From: Hordeum vulgare subsp. vulgare | Lineage: Eukaryota; Streptophyta; Magnoliopsida; Poales; Poaceae | DNA length: 64,000 nt | Assembly (NCBI RefSeq): GCF_904849725.1 | Contig: NC_058519.1 | Span: 537,858,316 to 537,922,315, forward strand | Direction: 5' to 3' | Shown here: in pieces, positions 6,737 to 62,796 of the stretch | Layout: the number at the start of each line of letters is the position of its first letter | Numbering within the stretch: position 1 is the first letter of the stretch | Notes under the pieces: model-generated | Database searches by the model: none | Told to the model about the DNA's origin: nothing | What the model saw: the letters and a program-made list of their open reading frames with translations, nothing else | Program-made: the position numbers and the translations under genes

Positions 6737-9700
6737 ATGGCGGTGCTGCTGCGCCCGGCGGCGATCGCCGGCGGCCGGCAGGTCTGGCCGGTGGCGGAGG
6801 ACCAGGCCGACGCGGCGGCGGCGGCCTCCCAGCGGCTCGTGGAGGCGGTGGCGCGCGGCGACTCCAGGGAGGCGGGCGAGCTGCTCGCGTCCGGGCGCGC
6901 GGACGTGAACTACGCCGGGGTGGTGTGGCTCGACGCGCGCCGGGTGGCGGAGGCGGCGCTGCGGGAGGGCGCCGCCGCCGAGCTGCGCGCGTCGCGGGAG
7001 GAGATCCGCGCCGACGTCTCGCCGCTCTTCCTCGCCGCCGGCAACGGGGACGTCGCGCTCGTCCGCGCGCTGCTCGTGAGTGCTTGGCTCCTCCCTCCCC
7101 TGCTCTCGTCGTTTTTGGGACTTGCTCTGCTGCCGTTTCCCGTCTGCTTTTCGGTTTGGAGAGCACGGCCATGCTGCTTTTCCGTCGGTTTTGATGCGTT
7201 TAGCCAGGAATGCGAGCTCCGTTTTGGCTTATTATGACCGGCGTTTCATCCATAATTTGTAGAGTACTAGTACAATCGAACACCCAAACACACATTTTTC
7301 ACCTTGGAAGAAATAAGTCTAGGAAAGGAAACATGGAGAGCGTGCGCCGCTCAAAATTTGAAGTGCCATAGGGCGTAGGCCGGACTAGCTTAGCTGCGCT
7401 TTTATCTTTACCGAGTCGGCGAAGACTTTCAAAAAACATTTTCGAATGGTCTCAGCGGGCGCTGGCAACTCACGGATGTACTACAAGTACAACACACTGT
7501 CTGTATCTCATCCATGTAGTACTCCCGCATAGTTCAGTGTACCTGATGGATAGATAGGAGTAGAAGGTTGGCCATCTACTTCCGTTCCATTCCAAATGAA
7601 AAAGCTTTGAGCTCATCATAGTTCAGTCTACTATATAAATGCACGCGCCAGGACAAATCCCATTTTCGTGTAGGTTTAGACACGCATGCCAGCCCCCCCT
7701 CTCAAATCTCATTTACGCGCTCGGCCTGGCCCCTCCTACTAATCACTTCCTACCCTCCAAAATGGAGTTATATTAGACATAAAGAACATTCATTACGAGA
7801 TATTTTGCAGACCCCAATCATGTGTTCCCTCGCCAGTCTTCACTTGAGGAGCTCCAACCCATTTCTCTGCAATTAGTTTCTCGAAGAGGGGCTACCAAGT
7901 AGTAGTACCAACCCGCATGGCTGCGATGGGGACCATGCTGTGCTTTGCGTTTGCAGTTCCTCTTTAATGCGTGTACGGACACATTTTGTTGTCTTGCCAT
8001 GATACAAGTCGTGAAACGGATGGGGGCATGGAGCCGGCCATGGAGCTTACGCAGAGAAGCTTCCTGGACACGCCTTCTAGTAGGAGCATGCCCTAGATAT
8101 ACGTGTGTGTGTGTGTACAGTATATATGTGCATCGATCGAGGTCTAGACATACCGTATATACATACATACATACGTCCTGACATGTTACTGTACAGTACA
8201 TTGCCTACAAAACAAATTATTTCCTACGTACATTTTTTGTAGTAGTAAAACTGAGGTTGGTCCACAAGGCTACGCACGCTGCTGCGTTGGGGAGAGATGT
8301 AATGGAGTATTTTAGCGACGAATTGGGGGGACAACGGTAGATGGGTTTGACTTTAACCCTGACCCATCCGTGCTTTGTTTACTGCTGCCGATAATATAAC
8401 GAATCAGGTAAGTAGTAGTCGAAAGCACAGGTGCCCAGCGGTTGATGGTACTCCAGTCCAGTGGTGCTGCTAATCAAGTTTACCACTCTACAAAACAGGC
8501 AAAGGGAAGAGCTCAACCTCTGAACCTCAACGCTTTGGCCGAAACCAATATATTCCCCCCTCGTGAGCGCGGTCGGGGTTGGTATCACGTGACCCCCTCA
8601 CTCAGGGTCAGGGTCCCGTCCCCCTCGACCCCCAGAGTCCCAGCACAGTTCATCCTACGTCCGTGTCTTTGTCTTGTGTAGTGCACACTCCAGTAATCCT
8701 CAGATTTGTTGGATCCCATGGTACTATGCCTTGGCCTTTGGTAGTTGCCACCTGGGCCTGATCACTGATCACGGCCTCACGTGCCTGTCACGCGTAATCA
8801 TGCAAGATCGTTCTGCTCTACGAGGTTAAGGGCGTGTGTGTCTCGCAACAGGTGGTGGAGGTGGAGGCGAGGTGAGATCCATGATCTATCTACGTGGCTT
8901 GCAGTGTCCGGCCGGTTGATCCGCCGGTGTCATGGGGCGGCCCCGATGCGCTATGCCAACTCCATTGAATGGGATTGACAGGGGAGTAGGTTGCAATGGA
9001 CGGGGCCGAGCACGAGCAGGAGCACGCACCCGGCCGGCCATGCCATGTACTCCTACTACCAGTAGTCTTTGCCTTGCAGGCAAAGCGCACGGCGCATGGG
9101 TACCGGCACTCTCCCCTGATCCCTTCCAAGGCCAATAAATGCCATCGCCATTCGCCAGGGACAGGAGTCCCATGGCCGGCGTGGCCCTCGTCCCAGAGGC
9201 GCATGCTTTGCTGCAGCATCTTGCTTGTTTGGAGCTCTTCGTTTGGCTCGCTAGCATGGAAAAGGGATGCGGCCGAGCAGGCAACACATCTCAACTCTGC
9301 TCTGCTGGGTCTTCCGGATCAAGACAATTTAGGGCTGAACCTCGTGCGTTTTGTAAGCGTGAAGCCGATCCCAAAACCTGCTAGAGCTCATCCGGGCCGG
9401 CACTGCTCGCTCAGCGGAACCACACGGTCCGCATCTGCCGTCCGCACATGCCGGACGCTAGCTGATCCAATACGTCCAAACCGCCCCAGCTGTATTTGAT
9501 CACGCCATGAAACCTAGCCCCTTGAGATTGAGATGCTGAGCCCCAAGCCGGCAAGTAGGCCAAGGACGGCCAACCTTCTCCGTCCTCCGTGGAAGCGCCA
9601 TCAAAGACACCGACGCATGTCCGTCCCAGTGCGATGCATCACAATCACATGCCCGATCGCATCGCATCGCTCGCTCGGCCTCTGCATGGCACCCCTGAGC

Positions 9701-12700
9701 CGGCACGACGGGGGAGAGGAGGTATTGGGTACGGAGAGCTCACCCACGTACCCTGTCGCGTTCCTTGTCTCGTAGCCATGGCCTGCCCCCTCTGCCACCG
9801 GCCAGCTGTACCCCCTGCTGCTCCTCCCCCCTCATCACTCATGGCTGGCCAGCTACGCGCACTTGGCGCCCATGCACAGCCGCGGGCACGTCCGTCCTTC
9901 CCTGTCCTGCCCTCAGCGCCTGCCGCTCCTCGTGTATCCGGTGGTGGCCTGCGCGCCATTGATGGTGACATGGGGAGACCATGCACTGTTAACAACATCA
10001 CCTCGGCTCAGTGCACCAGTGCTATGTATTTATTGTACAGCGCTGGAATATAGGCTAGGTCTCCTTGAGGTTGATACAGGGAGGTCCTGTTACAGTGTGA
10101 GTGGATGGTTAAACTGGGGATCTGATGTGACTATTACTAGATGCTTAACATCGATGGCCGCAGCATCTTTTATTGCTCAACGGAACCGTTGTTCATGCAT
10201 TCATTCAGTCCGATTTGCAGTAGGAAATGAGAAACACGACTGTTTTTCTGTAATTGAACAACATTTGACAAGGGCAAATGTGCAAGCTTGGATATATTTT
10301 CGGTAGGTGTTGCCATCTTGAAAGCTACGGCTGCTATATGCAGCGACGTTGAGCTGACACAGAGGTAATGAAGGCAGGAACATAAAGATTTGAGGCAATA
10401 TCTCGAATCTCGATGGATGGATAGGGATGCCATCACCTGCAGAATTTTGACCAGATTCCCTCTTCCAGTAGGAGGCCCCTTCTGTTCTCTCCTGCGTAAA
10501 TGAATCCTGGCATAGTGCCAATGCAACAGTACCTGCACTGCACAGCACAGCACAGGCTCACCGGCCAGCAAGCAGTCGATGTATTGGTCACCACATCACC
10601 GACCTGACCGGACATAGTACCAGCAACAGCGACATTTGCTACCCGGCCAGCTATGGTTCCGAGTCCCGATGGTCATTGGCCTCGCCCCTGTTCTAGTAGT
10701 ACGCTGGGGTGGGATGGACCATCTTTATCTTTACCTTCCGTGCAGTGAAAGCGAAATTAGAAGTAGGCCTCATGCACATTTTGTTTCAGGAATTCAACCT
10801 GCCTTGAGGGAATTGTTTAGCTGCTCAATCCGTGAACGTAAACATCCTCATCATTGTTAGGAGTTGCAGGTCTGCGTTCTACTGTAATTACTTTACACGC
10901 TTCTGATGGTTGGTTCACGTGTGGCGTGCAGGCAAAGGGAGCGGACGTGAACGGGAAGGTGTTCCGGGGGTACCCGGCGACGGCAGCGGCGCGGGAAGGG
11001 CGCGCGGAGGTGGCGGAGCTGCTGGTGCGCGCCGGTGCGTCGCAGCCGGCCTGCGAGGAGGCCATCGTGGAGGCTGCGCTGCAGGGGCAGGCTGCCCTGG
11101 CGGCCATCTTCATGCGCTCCGACCTCGTCCGCCCGCGCGTCGCCGTGCACGCGCTCGTGTCTGCGGCCACCCGCGGCTTCGTCGACGTGGTCGACACGCT
11201 CGTCAAGGTATGCCCATGTTACATTTCTCCTCCTATTCTTCTGGGCTTTTAGCTGCAGCTTTGAGTACTTAGGCCCTAGTATTACATGGGCTTCGGGCGA
11301 AACGGTTTAGCACCAACATATGGGCTTGGGCGTGAACTGCTGGCGAGGTTAACTTCTCATGGGCTCGAGTTTTGTGTCCTAGGGCGCAAAGGGGTACGCG
11401 TGGTGTGCCGCAGCAGAGAGTGTCCTAGTCTTTAGTCCCACCTCGCTGGCTGAGGGAAGCTGTGACCGGTTTATAAGGCGAGGTGTACTTCACACCACTG
11501 TGTTCGTAAAAAGGAGAGACGGTTGGCATCTCCCCTGACAGGGACGGGAACGGTCTTCGGACTTTCCTCTAGCACACTGCGGTTAAGGCTACCCGCTTCG
11601 GCGGATCTTACCCAAATTTTTTTGCCGATTTTGTTTTACAAAACAAATTTAAATAAGTTGTTCGACATTAAAATAATTTCTCAAAATTTGCACGCATGGA
11701 TTCTTTATGTGTTATATCCTACGCGGCATCTAATATCATCTGATTCTCTCCTTTGCAGTGCGGGGCTGATCCAAACGCGACCTCCCGGGTGCTTCTGCGT
11801 TCTCTCAAGCCATCACTGCATCTCAATGTCGACTGCACAGCGCTCTTCGCCGCGATCGTGAGCCGGCAAGTCGCCGTGGTTCGTCAGCTACTTCAGGTGT
11901 GCACCATCGCATCGCCAACCTCTTTTCGCGATCGACGCATTTGAGTCTTTTTGACGCTCATTTTGCTCCTCTTGTGCAGGCTGGTGTGAAGAGGGACACC
12001 AAGGCGAGGCTAGGAGCGTGGTCCTGGGACGCGGCCACCGGTGAAGAGCTGCGCGTCGGCGCCGGGCTAGCGGAGCCATACGATGCGGCCTGGTGCGCCG
12101 TGGAGTACTACGAGTCCACCGGCTCCGTCCTGCGCATGCTCCTGCAGAACGGGTACTCGTTGGGCGCCACGCACCATGGCCGGACGCTGCTCCACCACGC
12201 CATCCTCTGCGGGAGCGTCGGCGCCGTCGAGACGCTGCTGGGTTGTGGTGCGGAATGCGAAGCTGCCGTGAGGACCTCCCGGAGCGGCAGGTCCAGGCCT
12301 GTTCACTTGGCCGCGCGCCTCGGCCAGCCGGAGATCCTGCAGACGCTCATGGACAAGGGCTGCGACGTCAACGCGAGGGCGGAGGCTGGCGATGTCGCCG
12401 TCATCCTGGCCGCGCGCCACAAGGAAGAGGACTGCGTCAGGGTTCTCGTGTCAGCCGGAGCAGACGTTGCGCTGTTGAACTTGGCAGGCGAGTCGGCGGC
12501 ATCCGTCGCCTCTTCCGGTGGCTGGAAGGCGGGCTTTGAACGCGCCGTTCTTGGCGCGATTCGGTCCGGGACCATCCCTCTGTCCAGCGATCGGCACGTG
12601 TTCTCGCCCATGCTGTTCACGGCGCGATGCGGTGATGCCGCTGCGCTGGAGGTGCTGCTCGCCCAGCCGGGCGTGGACGTGGACGAGCAGGACGCCGACG

Positions 12701-13542
12701 GGTGCTCGCCCATAATGGCCGCCGCCAAGGAAGGCAATGTTGACGCCTTCCGCGCCCTCGTCTTCGCCGGCGCCAACGTGAAGCTGTGCAACAAGCGTGG
12801 CGAGACGGCCATTGGGCTCGCGCAGCAGAGCAAGAAGAGGGACCTCTTCGAGCAGGTCATGCTCGACTTCGCGCTGGAGAAGGGCATGCCGGCCGGCGGG
12901 TTCTACGCTCTGCACTGCGCGTCCCGGCGCGGCGACAGCGCGGCCGTGCATCACCTGGCGAGCACGGGCTACGACGTTAACATCCCGGACGGCGATGGAT
13001 ACACCCCGCTCATGCTGGCCGCAAGAGAAGGCCACGCGACCGTGTGCGAGCTACTGATCTCCCACGGCGCCCGGTGCGACATCCAGACCCCGCGGGGTGA
13101 GACGGCGCTCTCCCTCGCACGGTCGGCGCTTGCCACTGCGGCCTTCAACAAGGCCGAGGACGTGATCATGGACGAGCTGGGCCGGCAGCTGGTGCTGGCG
13201 GGCGCGCACGTCGTGAAGCACACCAAGGGCGGGCGCGGGAGGCCGCACGGCAAGTCGCTGCGGATGGTCGCCGCGGCCGGCGTGCTCCGGTGGGGCGGGT
13301 CGAGCCGCCGCAACGTCATGTGCGTGGAGGCCGAGGTCGGGGGCAGCTCGGCGTTCCAGCGGCACCGGCAGAGGAAGGGCCGCCGAGGCGACGACGCGTA
13401 CGCGCCGGGGCTGTTCCGCGTGGTGACGGCGACGGGGAAGGAGGTGCACTTCGTGTGCCAGGGCGGGGAGGAGGCGGCGGAGCTGTGGGTGCGGGGCATC
13501 AGGGCGCTCACCAGGGCGGTGTTCGGCAAGCGGGGGAACTAG
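6737..13542 (+). CDS. Ankyrin-repeat protein, 771 aa, four exons
   Basis: Exons 6737-7075, 10932-11207, 11759-11896 and 11980-13542 join to 771 codons plus stop. All introns are GT-AG and phase 0. The protein starts MAVLLRPAAIAGGRQVWPV. Ankyrin repeats run from about residue 93 to 660, for example DVSPLFLAAGNGDVALVRALL, DGDGYTPLMLAAREGHATVCELL and ADGCSPIMAAAKEGNVDAFRAL, with about ten or more units. The C-terminus (FRVVTATGKEVHFVCQGG, then AELWVRGIRALTRAVFG) looks like a PH-type tail conserved in a plant ankyrin subfamily. No signal peptide or membrane helix is seen, so a cytosolic protein-interaction role is likely; partners are unknown. Exons are very GC-rich and introns are not. All three introns cut the repeat at the same place, before the (A/C)GA(D) turn. 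Intron 2 hosts the U6atac gene. The start was chosen downstream of the TATA box. Confidence 0.92.
7076..10931 (+). other. Intron 1 of the ankyrin-repeat gene (3.86 kb)
   Basis: Bounded by donor GTGAGTGC after codon 113 and acceptor GCGTGCAG at 10931. It contains a (GT)n/(ATAC)n microsatellite stretch at about 8103-8174 and a GC-rich zone from about 8560 to 9990. I recognise no transposon or RNA gene inside. The ORFs across it lack family-like features and have no splice continuity. Confidence 0.8.
11287..11365 (+). promoter_or_regulatory. Three monocot-specific promoter (MSP)-like motifs
   Basis: TGGGCT occurs at 11287-11292, 11321-11326 and 11360-11365. It is the reverse complement of AGCCCA, which fits the RGCCCR motif known from monocot U-snRNA promoters. 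All three lie within 150 bp upstream of the USE of the U6atac gene. TGGGCT/AGCCCA is also common in other plant promoters, so the assignment rests on position. Confidence 0.5.
11434..11476 (+). promoter_or_regulatory. Plant snRNA promoter: USE plus TATA, Pol III spacing
   Basis: The upstream sequence element AGTCCCACCTCG (11434-11445) differs at one base from the plant consensus RTCCCACATCG. TTTATAA lies at 11470-11476. The gap of 24 bp is the spacing known for plant Pol III snRNA genes (Pol II snRNA genes have about 33-34). The TATA box begins 30 bp before the proposed RNA start at 11500. Together these form a complete plant Pol III snRNA promoter inside intron 2 of the ankyrin gene. Confidence 0.9.
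11500..11620 (+). ncRNA. U6atac: U6atac small nuclear RNA (minor spliceosome)
   Basis: The sequence matches U6atac along its length: GTGTTCGTA start, the AAGGAGAGA box followed by GGTTGGCA and CTCCCCTGACAGGGACGG, a stem capped by TTCG (GTC-TTCG-GAC), the conserved CGGTTAAGGC, and a 3' hairpin CCGC-TTCG-GCGG. In the family, AAGGA pairs with the 5' splice site of U12-type introns and the following bases pair with U4atac and U12; U6atac forms the catalytic core of the minor spliceosome in the nucleus. The length of about 121 nt fits. The gene has its own USE/TATA promoter and a T7 terminator, so it is expected to be transcribed by Pol III independently of the ankyrin gene. It lies wholly inside intron 2 (11208-11758) in the same direction. 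I see no defect that would make it a pseudogene. Confidence 0.93.
11617..11623 (+). terminator. Pol III terminator of U6atac
   Basis: A run of seven T immediately after the 3' hairpin and CCCAAA of the U6atac RNA. It is on the sense strand, as required for Pol III termination. RNA 3' ends are expected within the run. Confidence 0.85.
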
Positions 13543-33517: not shown

Positions 33518-36500
33518 ATGGCCAACGCACCTGTCAACCTCAATTTCAACGCATTTCTAGAGAAAAACAAGCTAAAAGATGATGGTAGCAACTATGCGGA
33601 CTGGGTCCACAACTTGAAGCTCATCCTCGAAGCAGCTAAAAAGGCTTATGTCCTTAATGCACCACTAGGTGACCCTCCTGCTCCCGCAGCGGCCCATGAC
33701 ATTCAGAACGTCTGGCACATGCGGAGTGATGACTACTCTCTGGTTAGGTGTGACATGTTATACAATTTGGAAACGGGGCTCCAAAGGCGTTTTGAGCAAC
33801 ACGGAGCATATGAGATGTTCCAGGAGCTGAAACTAGTTTTTCAAGCTCATGCCTGTGTCGAGAGATATGAAGTCTCCAACAAGTTCTTTAGATGTAAGAT
33901 GGAGGAGAACAGTTCTGTTAGTGAGCATATACTCAGAATGTCTGGGTTACACGGTCGTCTGACTTTGCTTGGAGTCGAACTTGCGGATGACGCTGTAATT
34001 GACATAATCCTCCAGTCTCTCCCACCAAGCTACAAGGGTTTTGTGCTGAACTACAACATGCAAGGGATGGAAAAGACCATTCCCGAGTTGTACTCGATGC
34101 TGAAATCTGCAGAAGTAGAAATCAAGAAAGAGCATCAAGTGTTGATGGTCAATAAGACCACCAGTTTTAAGAAGGGCAAGGGTAAGAAGAACTTCAAGAA
34201 AGACGGCAAAGCCGTTGCTACTCCCGGTAAGCCAGATACTGGGAAGGAGAAAACAATGGACCCAAGCCTGAGACTGAGTGCTTCTATTGCAAGGGAAAAG
34301 GTCAGTAGAAGCGGAACTGCCCCATGTACTTAGCGGACAAGAAGGCCGACAACGTTAAAGGTATATATGATATACATGTTATTGATGTGTACCTTACCAG
34401 CGCTCATAGTAGCTCCTGGTTATTTGATACCGGTGTTGTTGCTCACATTTGCAACTCAAAGCAGGAACTGCGGAATAAGCGGAGACTGGCCAAGGACGAG
34501 GTGACGATGCGCGTCGAGAATGGCTCCAAGGTCGATGTGATCGACGTCGGCACGCTGCCTCTACATCTACCGTCGGGATTAGTTCTAAACCTTAATAATT
34601 GTTATTTAGTACCAGCTTTGAGCATGAATATTGTACCAGGGTCTTGCTTAATGCGAGACGGCTACTCATTTAAGTCAGAGAATAATGGTTGTTCTATTTA
34701 TATGAGTGATATGTTTTATGGTCACGCTCCGTTGGTGAATGGTTTATTCTTGATGAATCTCGATCGTGATGTTACACATATTCATAGTGTGAGTACCAAA
34801 AGATGTAAAGTTGATAATGATAGTGCCACATACTTGTGGCACTGCCGCCTTGGTCATATCGGTGTTAAGCGCATGAAGAAGCTCCATACTGATGGACTAT
34901 TAGAGTCTCTTGACTTTGTGTCATTTGACACATGCGAACCATGCCTCATGGGCAAGATGACTAAGACTCCATTCTCAGGAATAATGGAGAGAGCGACCGA
35001 CTTATTGGAAATAATACATACTGATGTGTGTGGTCCAATGAACGTTGAAGCTCGCGGTGGCTACCGTTATGTTCTCACTCTTACCGATGATTTGAGTAGG
35101 TATGGGTATATCTACTTGATGAAGCACAAATCTGAGACGTTTGAAAAGTTCAAGGAATTTCAGAGTGAGGTTGAGAATCAACGTGACAGAAAAATTAAGT
35201 GTCTACAATTTGATCGTGGAGGAGAATATTTGAGTCACGATTTTGGCACACACCAAAGAAGCGTGGAATTGTTTCACAACTGACGCTGCCTGGCACACCG
35301 CAACGTAACGGAGTGTCTGAACGTCGTAATCGCACTTTATTAGATATGGTACGATCTATGATGTCTCTTACCGACTTACCGTTATCATTTGGGGGATACG
35401 CATTGGAAACTGCAGCATTCACTTTAAATAGGGCACCGTCTAAATCCGTTGAGACGACACCGTATGAACTATGGTTTGGCAAAAAACCTAACCTGTAATT
35501 TCTTATAGTTTGGGGCTGCGATGCTTATGTGAAGAAACTTCAACCAGAAAATCTCGAACCCAAAGCGGAGAAATGTGTATTCATAGGATACCCTAAGGAA
35601 ACTATTGGGTATACCTTCTATCTTAGATCCAAAGGTAAAACATTTATTGCCAAGAACGGATCCTTTCTAGAGAAAGAGTTTCTCTCGAAAGAAGTAAGTG
35701 GGGGGAAAGTAGAACTTGATGAGGTAATTACACCCCCTCTCGAACCGGAGAGTAGCGCAACGCGGGAAATTGTTCCTGTGGCGCCTGCGCCAACTGGAGA
35801 GGAAGTTAATGATGATGATCATGAAGCCTTAGATCAAGTTGCTACTGAACCACGAAGGTCCACAAGGGTACGATCCGCACCGGAGTGGTACGACAACCCT
35901 GTGATGGAAATCATGTTGTTAGACAACGGTGAACCTTCGAACTATGAAGAAGCAATGGCGGGCCCGGATTCCAACAAATGGCTTGAGGCTATGAAATCCG
36001 AGATAGGATCCATGTATGAGAGCAAAGTATGGGCTTTGGTGGACTTGCCCGATGATCGGCGAGCGATAGACAATAAATGGATCTTCAAGAAGAAGACTGA
36101 CGCAAACGGTAATGTGATCGTTTACAAAGCTCGACTTGTCGCAAAGGGTTTTCGACAAACTCAAGGAGTTTACTACGATGAGACTTTCTATCCCGTAGCG
36201 AAGCTGAAGTCAGTCCGAATCATGTTAGCAATTGCCGCTTTTCATGATTATGAAATTTGGCAAATGGACGTCAAAACAATGTTCATTAACGGGTATCTTA
36301 AGGAAGAGTTGTATATGATGCAACCAGAAGGTTTTGTCGATCCTAAGAGTGCTAACAAGGTATGAAATCTCCAGCGCTCCATCTATGGGCTGGTGCAAGC
36401 ATCTCGGAGTTGGAACATTCGCTTTAATGAGGTGATTAAAGCGTTTGGGTTCATACAGGTTTATGGAGAAGCCTGTCTATACAAGAAAGTGAGTGGGAGC

Positions 36501-37420
36501 TCTGTAGCTTTCCTCATACTATATGTGGATGACATATTATTGATTGGGAATAATATAGAGTTATTGGAGAGCATAAAGGCCTACTTGAACAAGAGTTTTT
36601 CAATGAAGGACCTTGGAGAAGCTGCATACATATTAGGCATCAGGATCCATAGAGATAGATCGACACGCCTCATAGGTCTTTCACAAAGTACATACCTTGA
36701 CAAGATATTGAAGAAGTTCAATATGGAAAACTCAAAGAAGGGGTTCTTGCCAGTTTTACAAGGTATGAGGTTGAGTAAGACTCAGTCACCGACCACGACA
36801 GCAGATAGAGAGAAGATGAGTCATGTCCCATACGCGTCAGCCGTAGGCTCTCTAATGTATGTCATGCTGCGTACCAGACCTGATATAAACCTTGCCATAA
36901 GTTTGGTAGGGCGGTACCAAAGTGATCCCGGTACGGAACACTAGACAATAGTCAAGAATATCCTTAAGTACCTGAAAAGGACTAAGGAGATGTTTCTCGT
37001 TTATGGAGGCGATGAAGAGCTCGTCGTAAAGGGTTACGCCGATGCTAGCTTCGACACAGATCCGGATGACTCTAAGTCACAGACCGGATACGTGTATGTT
37101 TTGAATGTCGGGGCAGTGAGCTGGTGCAGCAGCAAGCAAGAAGTCATGGCAGCATCTACATGTGAAGCGGAGTACATAGCTGCTTCAGAAGCGGCTCATA
37201 AAGGGATTTGGATGAAGGAGCTCATCACCGACCTTGGATTGGTCCCAAGCGCGTCGGGTCCGATGACACTCTTCTGTGATAACACTGGGGCCATTGCCAT
37301 AGCCAAGGAGCCCAAGTTTCACCGGAAGACTAAGCACATCAAACGCCGCTACAACTCCATCTAGGACCATGTCCAGAGTGGAGTAATAGATATTTGTAAA
37401 GTGCACACGGATCTGAATAT
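33518..37420 (+). pseudogene. Copia gag-pol of element A, broken by stops and frameshifts
   Basis: Gag starts MANAPVNLNFNAFLEKNKLK at 33518. A frameshift near 34256 precedes the zinc knuckle ECFYCKGKGQ, whose next codon (34306-34308) is TAG where Trp is usual. Protease: WLFDTGVVAHICNS near 34420. Integrase: LWHCRLGHIG...CEPC near 34840-34950, TDVCGPMN near 35020. Frameshift near 35265; stop at 35496. RT: KWIFKKKTDANG near 36080, stop at 36363, catalytic YVDD at 36522-36533, stop at 36942. RNase H: ADASFDTDPDDSKSQTG and SSKQEVMAASTCEAEYIAAS, stop at 37362. The order PR-IN-RT-RH is that of copia. Several stops fit C-to-T decay. Confidence 0.93.
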
Positions 37421-50879: not shown

Positions 50880-52700
50880 TGTTGGAAATATGCCCTAGAG
50901 GCAATAATAAATTAGTTATTATTATATTTCTTTGTTCATGATAATCGTTTATTATCCATGCTATAATTGTTTTGATTGGAAACACAGTGCATGTGTGGAT
51001 ACATAGACAAAACACTGTCCCTAGTAAGCCTCTAGTTGACTAGCTCGTTGATCAGAGATGGTCAAGGTTTCCTGACCATAGGCAAGTGTTGTCACTTGAT
51101 AACGGGATCACATCATTAGGAGAATCATGTGATGGACTAGACCCAAACTAATAGACGTAGCATGTTGATCGTGTCATTTTGTTGCTACTGTTTTCTGCGT
51201 GTCAAGTATTTGTTCCTATGACCATGAGATCATATAACTCACTGACACCGGAGGAATGCTTTGTGTGTATCAAACGTCGCAACGTAACTGGGTGACTATA
51301 AAGATGCTCTACAGGTATCTCCGAAGGTGTTCGTTGAGTTAGTATGGATCGAGACTGGGATTTGTCACTCCGTGTGACGGAGACGTATCTCGGGGCCCAC
51401 TCGGTAATACAACATCACACACAAGCCTTGCAAGCAATGTGACTTAGTGTAAGTTGCGGGATCTTGTATTACAGAACGAGTAAAGAGACTTGCCGGTAAA
51501 CGAGATTGAAATGGGTATGCGGATACTGACGATCGAATCTCAGGCAAGTAACATACCGAAGGACAAAGGGAATGACATACGGGATTATATGAATCCTTGG
51601 CACCGAGGTTCAAACGATAAGATCTTCGTAGAATATGTAGGATCCAATATGGGCATCCAGGTCCCGCTATTGGATATTGACCGAGGAGTCTCTCGGGTCA
51701 TGTCTACATAGTTCTCGAACCCGCAAGGTCTGCACACTTAAGGTTCGACATTGTTTTATGCGTATTTGAGTTATATGGTTGGTTACCAAATGTTGTTCGG
51801 AGTCCCGGATGAGATCACGGACGTCACGAGGGTTTCCGGAATGGTCCGGAAACGAAGATTGATATATAGGATGGCCTCATTTGGTTACCGGAAGGTTTTC
51901 GTGCATTACCGGAAAAGTTTCGGGCTCATCGGTAGTGTACTGGGAGTGCCGGGAGGGGTGCCGGGGACCATCAGGAGTGGTGTCACGCCCCAAGGGGTCT
52001 CATGGGCTATGGGAAGAGATAAACCAGCCCCTAGTGGGCTGGAATAAGTTCCCACTAAGGCCCATAAGGTTTGAGAAGGAAAAAACACAAGGTGGAAAGA
52101 GTTTCCAAGTGGGAAGGTGGAATCCTACTCCAAGTAGGATTGGAGTAGGACTCCTCCACCTCCAATTTCGGCCAAACCTTTAGGTTTTGAGGCTGCCTCC
52201 TCCCCTCCCTCCCTCCTATATATAGTGGGGTTTTAGGGCTGATTTGAGAAAACTTTTGCCACGGCAGCCTGACCACATACCTCCACGGTTTTACCTCTAG
52301 ATCGCGTTTCTTTGGAGCTCGGGCGGAGCCCTGCTGAGATTAGATCACCACCAACCTCCGGAGCGCCGTCATGCTGCCGGAGAACTCATCTACCTCTTCG
52401 TCTCTCTTGCTGGATCAAGAAGGCCGAGATCATCGTCGAGCTGTACGTGTGCTGAACGCGGAGGTGCCGTCCGCTCGGCACTAGATCGGAGCGGATCGTG
52501 GGATGGATCGCAGGACGGTTCGCGGGGCGGATCGAGGGACGTGAGGACGTTCCACTACATCAACCGCGTTTCTTAACGCTTCTGCTGTGCGATCTACAAG
52601 GGTACGTAGATCAGAAATCCCCTCTCGTAGATGGACATCACCATGATAGGTCTTCGTGCGCGTAGGAAATTTTTTGTTTCCCATGCGACGTTCCCCAACA
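50880..52700 (+). repeat. 5' LTR of copia element B
   Basis: 1821 bp, TGTTGGAAATATGCCCTAGAG to TTCCCCAACA. TATATATAGTGGGG near 52217. It holds a 12-bp tandem repeat with four units at 52493-52540. A degraded PBS TGGCATGATGAGCTAGG follows at 52702. Confidence 0.95.
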
Positions 52701-61388: not shown

Positions 61389-62796
61389 TGCTCTACAGGT
61401 ATCTCCGAAGGTGTTCGTTGAGTTAGTATGGATCGAGACTGGGATTTGTCAGTCCGTGTGACAGAGAGGTATCTCGGGGCCCACTCGGTAATACAACATC
61501 ACACACAAGCCTTGCAAGCAATGTGACTTAGTGTAAGTTGCGGGATCTTGTATTATGGAACGAGTAAAGAGACTTGCCGGTAAACGAGATTGAAATAGGT
61601 ATGCGGATACTGACGATCGAATCTCAGGTAAGTAACATACCGAAGGACAAAGGGAATGACATACGAGATTATATGAATCCTTGGCACTGAGGTTCAAATG
61701 GTAAGATCTTCGTAGAATATGTAGGATCCAATATGGGCATCCAGGTCCCCCTATTGGATATTGACCGAGGAGTCTCTCGGGTCATGTCTACATAGTTCTC
61801 GAACCCGCAGGGTCTGCACACTTAAGGTTCGACGTTGTTTTATGCGTATTTGAGTTATATGGTTGGTTACCGAATGTTGTTCGGAGTCCCGGATGAGATC
61901 ACGGACGTCACGAGGGTTTCCAGAATGGTCCGGAAATGAAGATTGATATATAGGATGGCCTCATTTGGTTACCGGAAGGTTTTCGTGCATTACCGGAAAA
62001 GTTTCGGGCTCATCGGTAGTGTACTGGGAGTGCCGGGAGGGGTGCCGGGGACCATCAGGAGGGGTGTCACGCCCCAATGGGTCTCATGGGCTATGGTAAG
62101 AGATAAACCAGCCCCTAGTGGGATGGAATAAGTTCCCACTAAGGCCCATAAGGTTTGAGAAGGAAAAAACACAAGGTGGAAAGAATTTCCAAGTGGGAAG
62201 GTGGAATCCTACTCCAAGTAGGATTGGAGTAGGACTCCTCCACCTCCAATTTCGGCCAAACCTTTAGGTTTTGAGGCTGCCTCCTCCCCTCCCTCCCTCC
62301 TATATATAGTGGGGTTTTAGGGCTGATTTGAGAAAAGTTTTGCCACGGCAGCCCGACCACATACCTCCACACTTTTACCTCTAGATCGCGTTTCTGCGGA
62401 GCTAGGGCGGAGCCCTGCTGAGATTGGATCACCACCAACCTCCGGAGCGTCATCACGCTGCCGGAGAACTCATCTACCTCTCCATCTCTCTTGCTGGATC
62501 AAGAAGGCCGAGATCATCGTCGAGCTGTACGTGTGCTGAACGCGGAGGTGCCGTCCGTTCGGCACTAGATCGGAGCGGATCGTGGGACGGATCGCGGGAC
62601 GGTTCGTGGGACGGTTCGCGGGGCGGATCGAGGGACGTGAGGACGTTCCACTACATCAACCGCATTTCTTAATGCTTCTGCTGTGCGATCTACAAGGGTA
62701 CGTAGATCGGAAATCCCCTCTCGTAGATGGACATCACCATGACAGGTCTTCGAGCGCGTAGGAAATTTTTTGTTTCCCATGCGACGTTCCCCAACA
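61389..62796 (+). repeat. 3' LTR of copia element B, second part
   Basis: It resumes at the duplicated TGCTC and runs to CCCCAACA. It carries five units of a 12-bp repeat at 62577-62636 where the 5' LTR has four. Otherwise nearly identical to the 5' LTR. Confidence 0.95.

Follow-up and report, generated by a model that had tools for sequence, protein, structure and literature searches.

The question raised by this barley locus is whether a stretch that lies in an intron of an ankyrin-repeat gene and resembles U6atac, which serves as catalytic RNA in the minor spliceosome, represents a working gene, and how such a unit might operate inside the transcription unit of its host. RNA identity, promoter parts and nesting were computed, as were a second copy and the stretches by which possible partner RNAs match, on the basis of the 64-kb window, that is, the whole stretch of DNA analyzed here (C2:537858316-537922315), and of the assembly of 4,214,333,890 bases to which it belongs. 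From these results, we propose with good confidence that this U6atac gene is functional and would be transcribed by Pol III within a Pol II host; a further gene with the same RNA body was found in the genome. The RNA itself is ordinary, and the main point of interest is its nested intronic location. According to PMC3728624, U6atac is scarce and strikingly unstable.

From a comparison with 4227 Rfam families, U6atac (RF00619) is the sole one reaching its gathering threshold in the 64-kb window. The match at 11500-11623 on the forward strand extends over model positions 1-126 and scores 87.2 bits at a threshold of 33, with E-values of 4.1e-21 in a 2.3-kb scan and 1.1e-19 over the whole window. 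The preliminary description had claimed a complete U6atac gene and proposed a covariance-model run as a check; with the strong, end-to-end match now obtained this claim is borne out, and the identity of 11500-11623 as U6atac is near certain. The entire model, both hairpins included, is covered by the barley RNA, the differences being a gap at model positions 97-101 (five positions of the 3' loop) and several 5' and central positions departing from the consensus. Following the forward strand, the RNA comprises GUGUUCG at its 5' end (11500-11506), AAAGGA (11510-11515), GGUUGGCA (11521-11528), the putative U4atac stem II sequence CAGGGACGGG (11539-11548) and a 3' stem-loop (11580-11612) with TTCG in the loop region. 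When the AAGGAGA box was tested by computing the pairing with UCCUUU, the consensus of U12-type 5' splice sites, the barley AAAGGA was able to pair at 6/6 positions. Neither a further U6atac nor a repeat of intron 2 was found in the rest of the 64-kb window, and a degenerate plant U6atac pattern matched no stretch in collections of viral, bacterial and archaeal contigs, which has no bearing on plants.

The barley gene also resembles the Arabidopsis system. According to PMC545797, Arabidopsis possesses two U6atac genes (atU6atac and atU6atac-2) with a promoter consisting of an upstream sequence element (USE) and a TATA box. When the U4atac query printed in PMC545797 is read as its reverse complement, the stem II region of Arabidopsis is CTCCTCTGACAGAGACGGG, from which the barley sequence CTCCCCTGACAGGGACGGG differs in two letters. 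The same query anneals to the barley U6atac at -34.8 kcal/mol, compared with a mean of -13.7 kcal/mol for 2000 random 124-nt segments of the window, of which only two reach the former value, both being located on the U6atac gene itself. As this query had been deduced from the Arabidopsis U6atac (PMC545797), the annealing reflects likeness to the latter and is not an independent test of pairing.

The U6atac sequence is equipped with promoter and terminator, in agreement with the preliminary description, which had postulated a USE, a 24-nt gap, a TATA box 30 nt ahead of the start and a T7 terminator; all of these parts were located as claimed. On the forward strand, the USE GTCCCACCTCG at 11435-11445 shows one mismatch to RTCCCACATCG and is the same in the second gene copy, the TATA box TTTATAAG at 11470-11477 follows 24 nt beyond the USE (26 nt when counted to the word TATA), the RNA start at 11500 is 30 nt past the TATA start at 11470, and the T7 tract occupies 11617-11623 as a T-tract terminator, a feature of plant type 3 Pol III genes. 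Two further USE matches with one mismatch occur in the window (22027 and 58700), neither of which has a TATA 20-30 nt downstream, and a USE followed by a TATA at this distance appeared on the forward strand in 1/20 shuffles of the 64-kb window. According to PMC9845283, the distance between USE and TATA in plant snRNA genes is shorter by one helical turn for Pol III than for Pol II. Counted from the end of the USE up to the word TATA, it amounts in barley to 26 nt in both U6atac genes versus 33 nt in a U4atac candidate and 37 nt in U12, so that the U6atac genes show the spacing of the plant type 3 Pol III class.

Upstream of the USE, in the part of the host intron that follows its 5' splice site, lie four TGGGCT sites that had not been mentioned in the preliminary description (11242-11365, with starts at 11242, 11287, 11321 and 11360, no strand being assigned). 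Their reverse complement AGCCCA fits RGCCCR, the monocot-specific promoter element (MSP) which, according to PMC9845283, is added upstream of monocot Pol III snRNA genes in one to three copies. In 5000 dinucleotide shuffles of this stretch, the mean number of sites is 0.75 (P 0.0048 for four), and at least four TGGGCT are found in 0.8% of 225-nt windows (step of 25 nt over the 64 kb, U6atac locus included; maximum of 6). The sites are assumed to be monocot-specific promoter elements working in reverse orientation. The locus shares with the plant type 3 Pol III genes for U6 and U3, as portrayed in PMC9845283, the USE plus TATA at shorter spacing and, with its presumed elements, the upstream MSP of monocots, but it encodes U6atac and is located inside an intron. 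Neither in its RNA nor in its promoter does it depart from a normal plant U6atac gene, a kind already well known.

The surrounding protein gene consists of four exons on the forward strand, the coding exon 1 (6737-7075), exon 2 (10932-11207), exon 3 (11759-11896) and exon 4 with the stop codon (11980-13542). Removal of the 551-nt intron 2 (11208-11758, GTATGC...TTTGCAG) leaves the frame open, and joining all four exons results in a 771-aa open frame with ankyrin repeats (Pfam) and full-length homologues in grasses. Among the 120 listed of 510 proteins passing an E-value of 1e-20, the best match shows 98% identity over 100% of the query and belongs to a cluster named Triticum urartu, and the next 15 listed are 81-87% identical, likewise over 100% of the query, 14 of these 15 being named for grasses; two Hibiscus proteins among those listed are named as like AT5G14230. 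Gene models translating intron 2 were not seen when inspecting by eye 21 of the 120 listed homologues (510 having passed 1e-20), and one homologue, P0087, has an unrelated stretch ahead of exon 3. Internal repeats were not found in intron 2. The nesting of U6atac in an ankyrin-repeat gene in the same direction, as previously claimed, therefore holds, with the RNA lying in sense within intron 2.

An intronic minor-spliceosome snRNA gene is also known from human, where RNU4ATAC has such a position and is transcribed by Pol II, not Pol III. In PMC13400782, RNU4ATAC is reported to overlap CLASP1, giving a precedent for an snRNA gene of the minor spliceosome overlapping a protein gene, albeit with another snRNA and another host gene than in the barley U6atac/ankyrin case. 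Judged by titles and openings of abstracts, no listed paper on U6atac of rice, maize and wheat, on nested snRNA genes of plants or on AT5G14230 deals with this arrangement, which does not imply that it is absent from print.

Loss of the U4atac/U12 pairing positions had been named beforehand as evidence against the gene. Instead, these positions have possible partners in the barley genome, the U4atac one being itself a candidate. U12 is encoded on C6 (Rfam, 87 bits) and preceded by the USE ATCCCACCTCG with the above-mentioned gap of 37 nt. U6atac positions 22-25 match U12 nt 9-12 (GGUU with AACU, one G-U) and positions 26-29 match U12 nt 2-5 (GGCA with UGCC), both lying in the GGUUGGCA stretch; these matches are short and others of equal size are found elsewhere in the list. 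They lie at the positions of helix Ia/Ib, which they may represent.

For U4atac, the Rfam genome search gave no match among 49 scored of 153,936 candidates. Arabidopsis U4atac was found via the complement of U6atac in combination with USE and TATA (PMC545797), and a barley pattern was built on the same idea, requiring 8/10 stem II pairs. One forward match was obtained (C4:151852600; L003 1579-1728), and as the backwards control also matched once, the pattern by itself does no better than chance. The candidate possesses a USE plus a TATA at a gap of 33 nt corresponding to Pol II spacing; the TATA, together with the full-model alignment and the 7-bp match given below, lies outside the pattern and lends support to this place. 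It aligns with the full Rfam U4atac model at 22.5 bits versus a cut-off of 53 (E 0.6), a low score with which the outcome of the Rfam genome search is consistent, and the alignment ends in CAAUUUUUGGAA. The candidate carries the Sm-site end CAATTTTTGGAA. With respect to pairing, U6atac positions 1-7 (GUGUUCG) form a 7-bp match with candidate nt 79-85 that was outside the search pattern, and the putative stem II comprises 10 bp between 11539-11548 and candidate nt 2-11, of which 8 were demanded by the pattern. In addition, a 6-bp match (one G-U) between U6atac positions 23-28 (GUUGGC, 11522-11527) and candidate nt 63-68 was noticed by eye and is missing from the predicted dimer. Since the dimer energy is reached by 4/300 shuffles of the candidate, it is suggestive but not decisive. 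If confirmed, the C4 candidate would demonstrate that a plant U4atac can score under the Rfam cut-off and yet be found via U6atac, and surveys relying on the Rfam U4atac model could miss it.

In the barley assembly, at least two U6atac matches exceed the Rfam cut-off, namely, the window gene on C2 and C6:90984929-90985052 (L001 1501-1624), and because 46 of 236,196 first-look candidates were scored this number is a lower bound, fitting the very few copies initially claimed. The bodies of both copies are identical at 116/116 positions, and over the full 124 nt they differ only once, at position 117 on the border of the T tract. Likewise, the USE (11/11) and the TATA box (8/8) are the same and both gaps are 24 nt, whereas the spacer between USE and TATA agrees at 13/24 positions only. 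When comparing the two 3.1-kb loci by BLAST, only the stretch from USE to terminator aligns (88.7%). This combination of an identical body, USE and TATA with a diverged spacer suggests that RNA and promoter have been under selection, in preference to a very recent duplication; gene conversion could also have produced the identity of the two copies. The Arabidopsis pair differs in that atU6atac-2 has a central deletion of 10 nt, as described in PMC545797, whereas the two barley bodies are the same. The C6 copy follows, at a distance of about 750 bp downstream, an open frame that contains an O-fucosyltransferase domain, so its neighbor is not the ankyrin gene.

This second copy gives room for the alternative that the C2 sequence, despite being intact, is a silent spare kept off by Pol II traffic of the host or by chromatin, all U6atac being made from C6. 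Such a scenario would profit from the same body and promoter core being available outside the ankyrin gene, and from the sense orientation of the nested unit, which might offer a route for interference. However, USE, TATA and RNA body have been conserved at C2 while spacers diverged, and four MSP-like sites are found within 350 nt upstream of the C2 gene versus one TGGGCT and one GGCCCG upstream of the C6 copy, so that we consider a silent C2 copy rather unlikely. Improbable, too, is a regulatory relationship in which Pol II transcription of the host adjusts how much U6atac is made by Pol III, or in which the influence runs the other way, and the C6 copy provides a constant supply; if true, it would link minor-splicing capacity to the ankyrin host gene. 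Many genomes contain retrocopies of low-copy snRNAs, and the intronic sequence might accordingly be thought of as a processed pseudogene inserted as a U6atac RNA retrocopy. An RNA retrocopy would lack a USE and a TATA box set at the distance used by Pol III, though, and the C2/C6 alignment spans USE to terminator with the full RF00619 model being matched, making this origin very improbable. A chance resemblance or an unrelated RNA is of practically negligible probability, the E-value being 1.1e-19 when the window is compared with 4227 Rfam families.

Judged from the sequence features, the C2 copy is probably active; most likely it works and duplicates the role of the C6 copy. For this gene, we infer transcription, polymerase choice and snRNP assembly as well as host splicing in vivo as follows. 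Directed by the USE/TATA promoter inside the intron, Pol III would initiate at 11500, the upstream monocot elements probably boosting this step, and would terminate at the T tract. The resulting U6atac is expected to pair with U4atac and, once released, with U12 and the U12-type 5' splice site, as in other eukaryotes. Pol II, on the other hand, would read the host ankyrin gene across the U6atac unit, which would be removed along with intron 2. An intronic second copy in a cereal-type grass offers a natural test of a Pol III unit inside a transcribed Pol II gene. Moreover, with the locus being known, edits of the ankyrin intron can avoid accidental damage to the snRNA gene.

Besides, some features in the remainder of the window may be mentioned. 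tRNA genes were not found in the 64 kb. Simple U12-type intron motifs (5' and branch) are scattered through the window. About eight tandem copies of a 74-bp unit are located at 1658-2235, this array overlapping the end of an opposite-strand open frame (2178-2714) without Pfam match. At 33518-36944, fragments of a Copia-type retrotransposon are present, whose gag, integrase and reverse transcriptase domains are spread over consecutive open frames. A 12-bp tandem unit, CGGATCGCGGGA, occurs at both 52492-52541 and 62576-62637, 10 kb apart.
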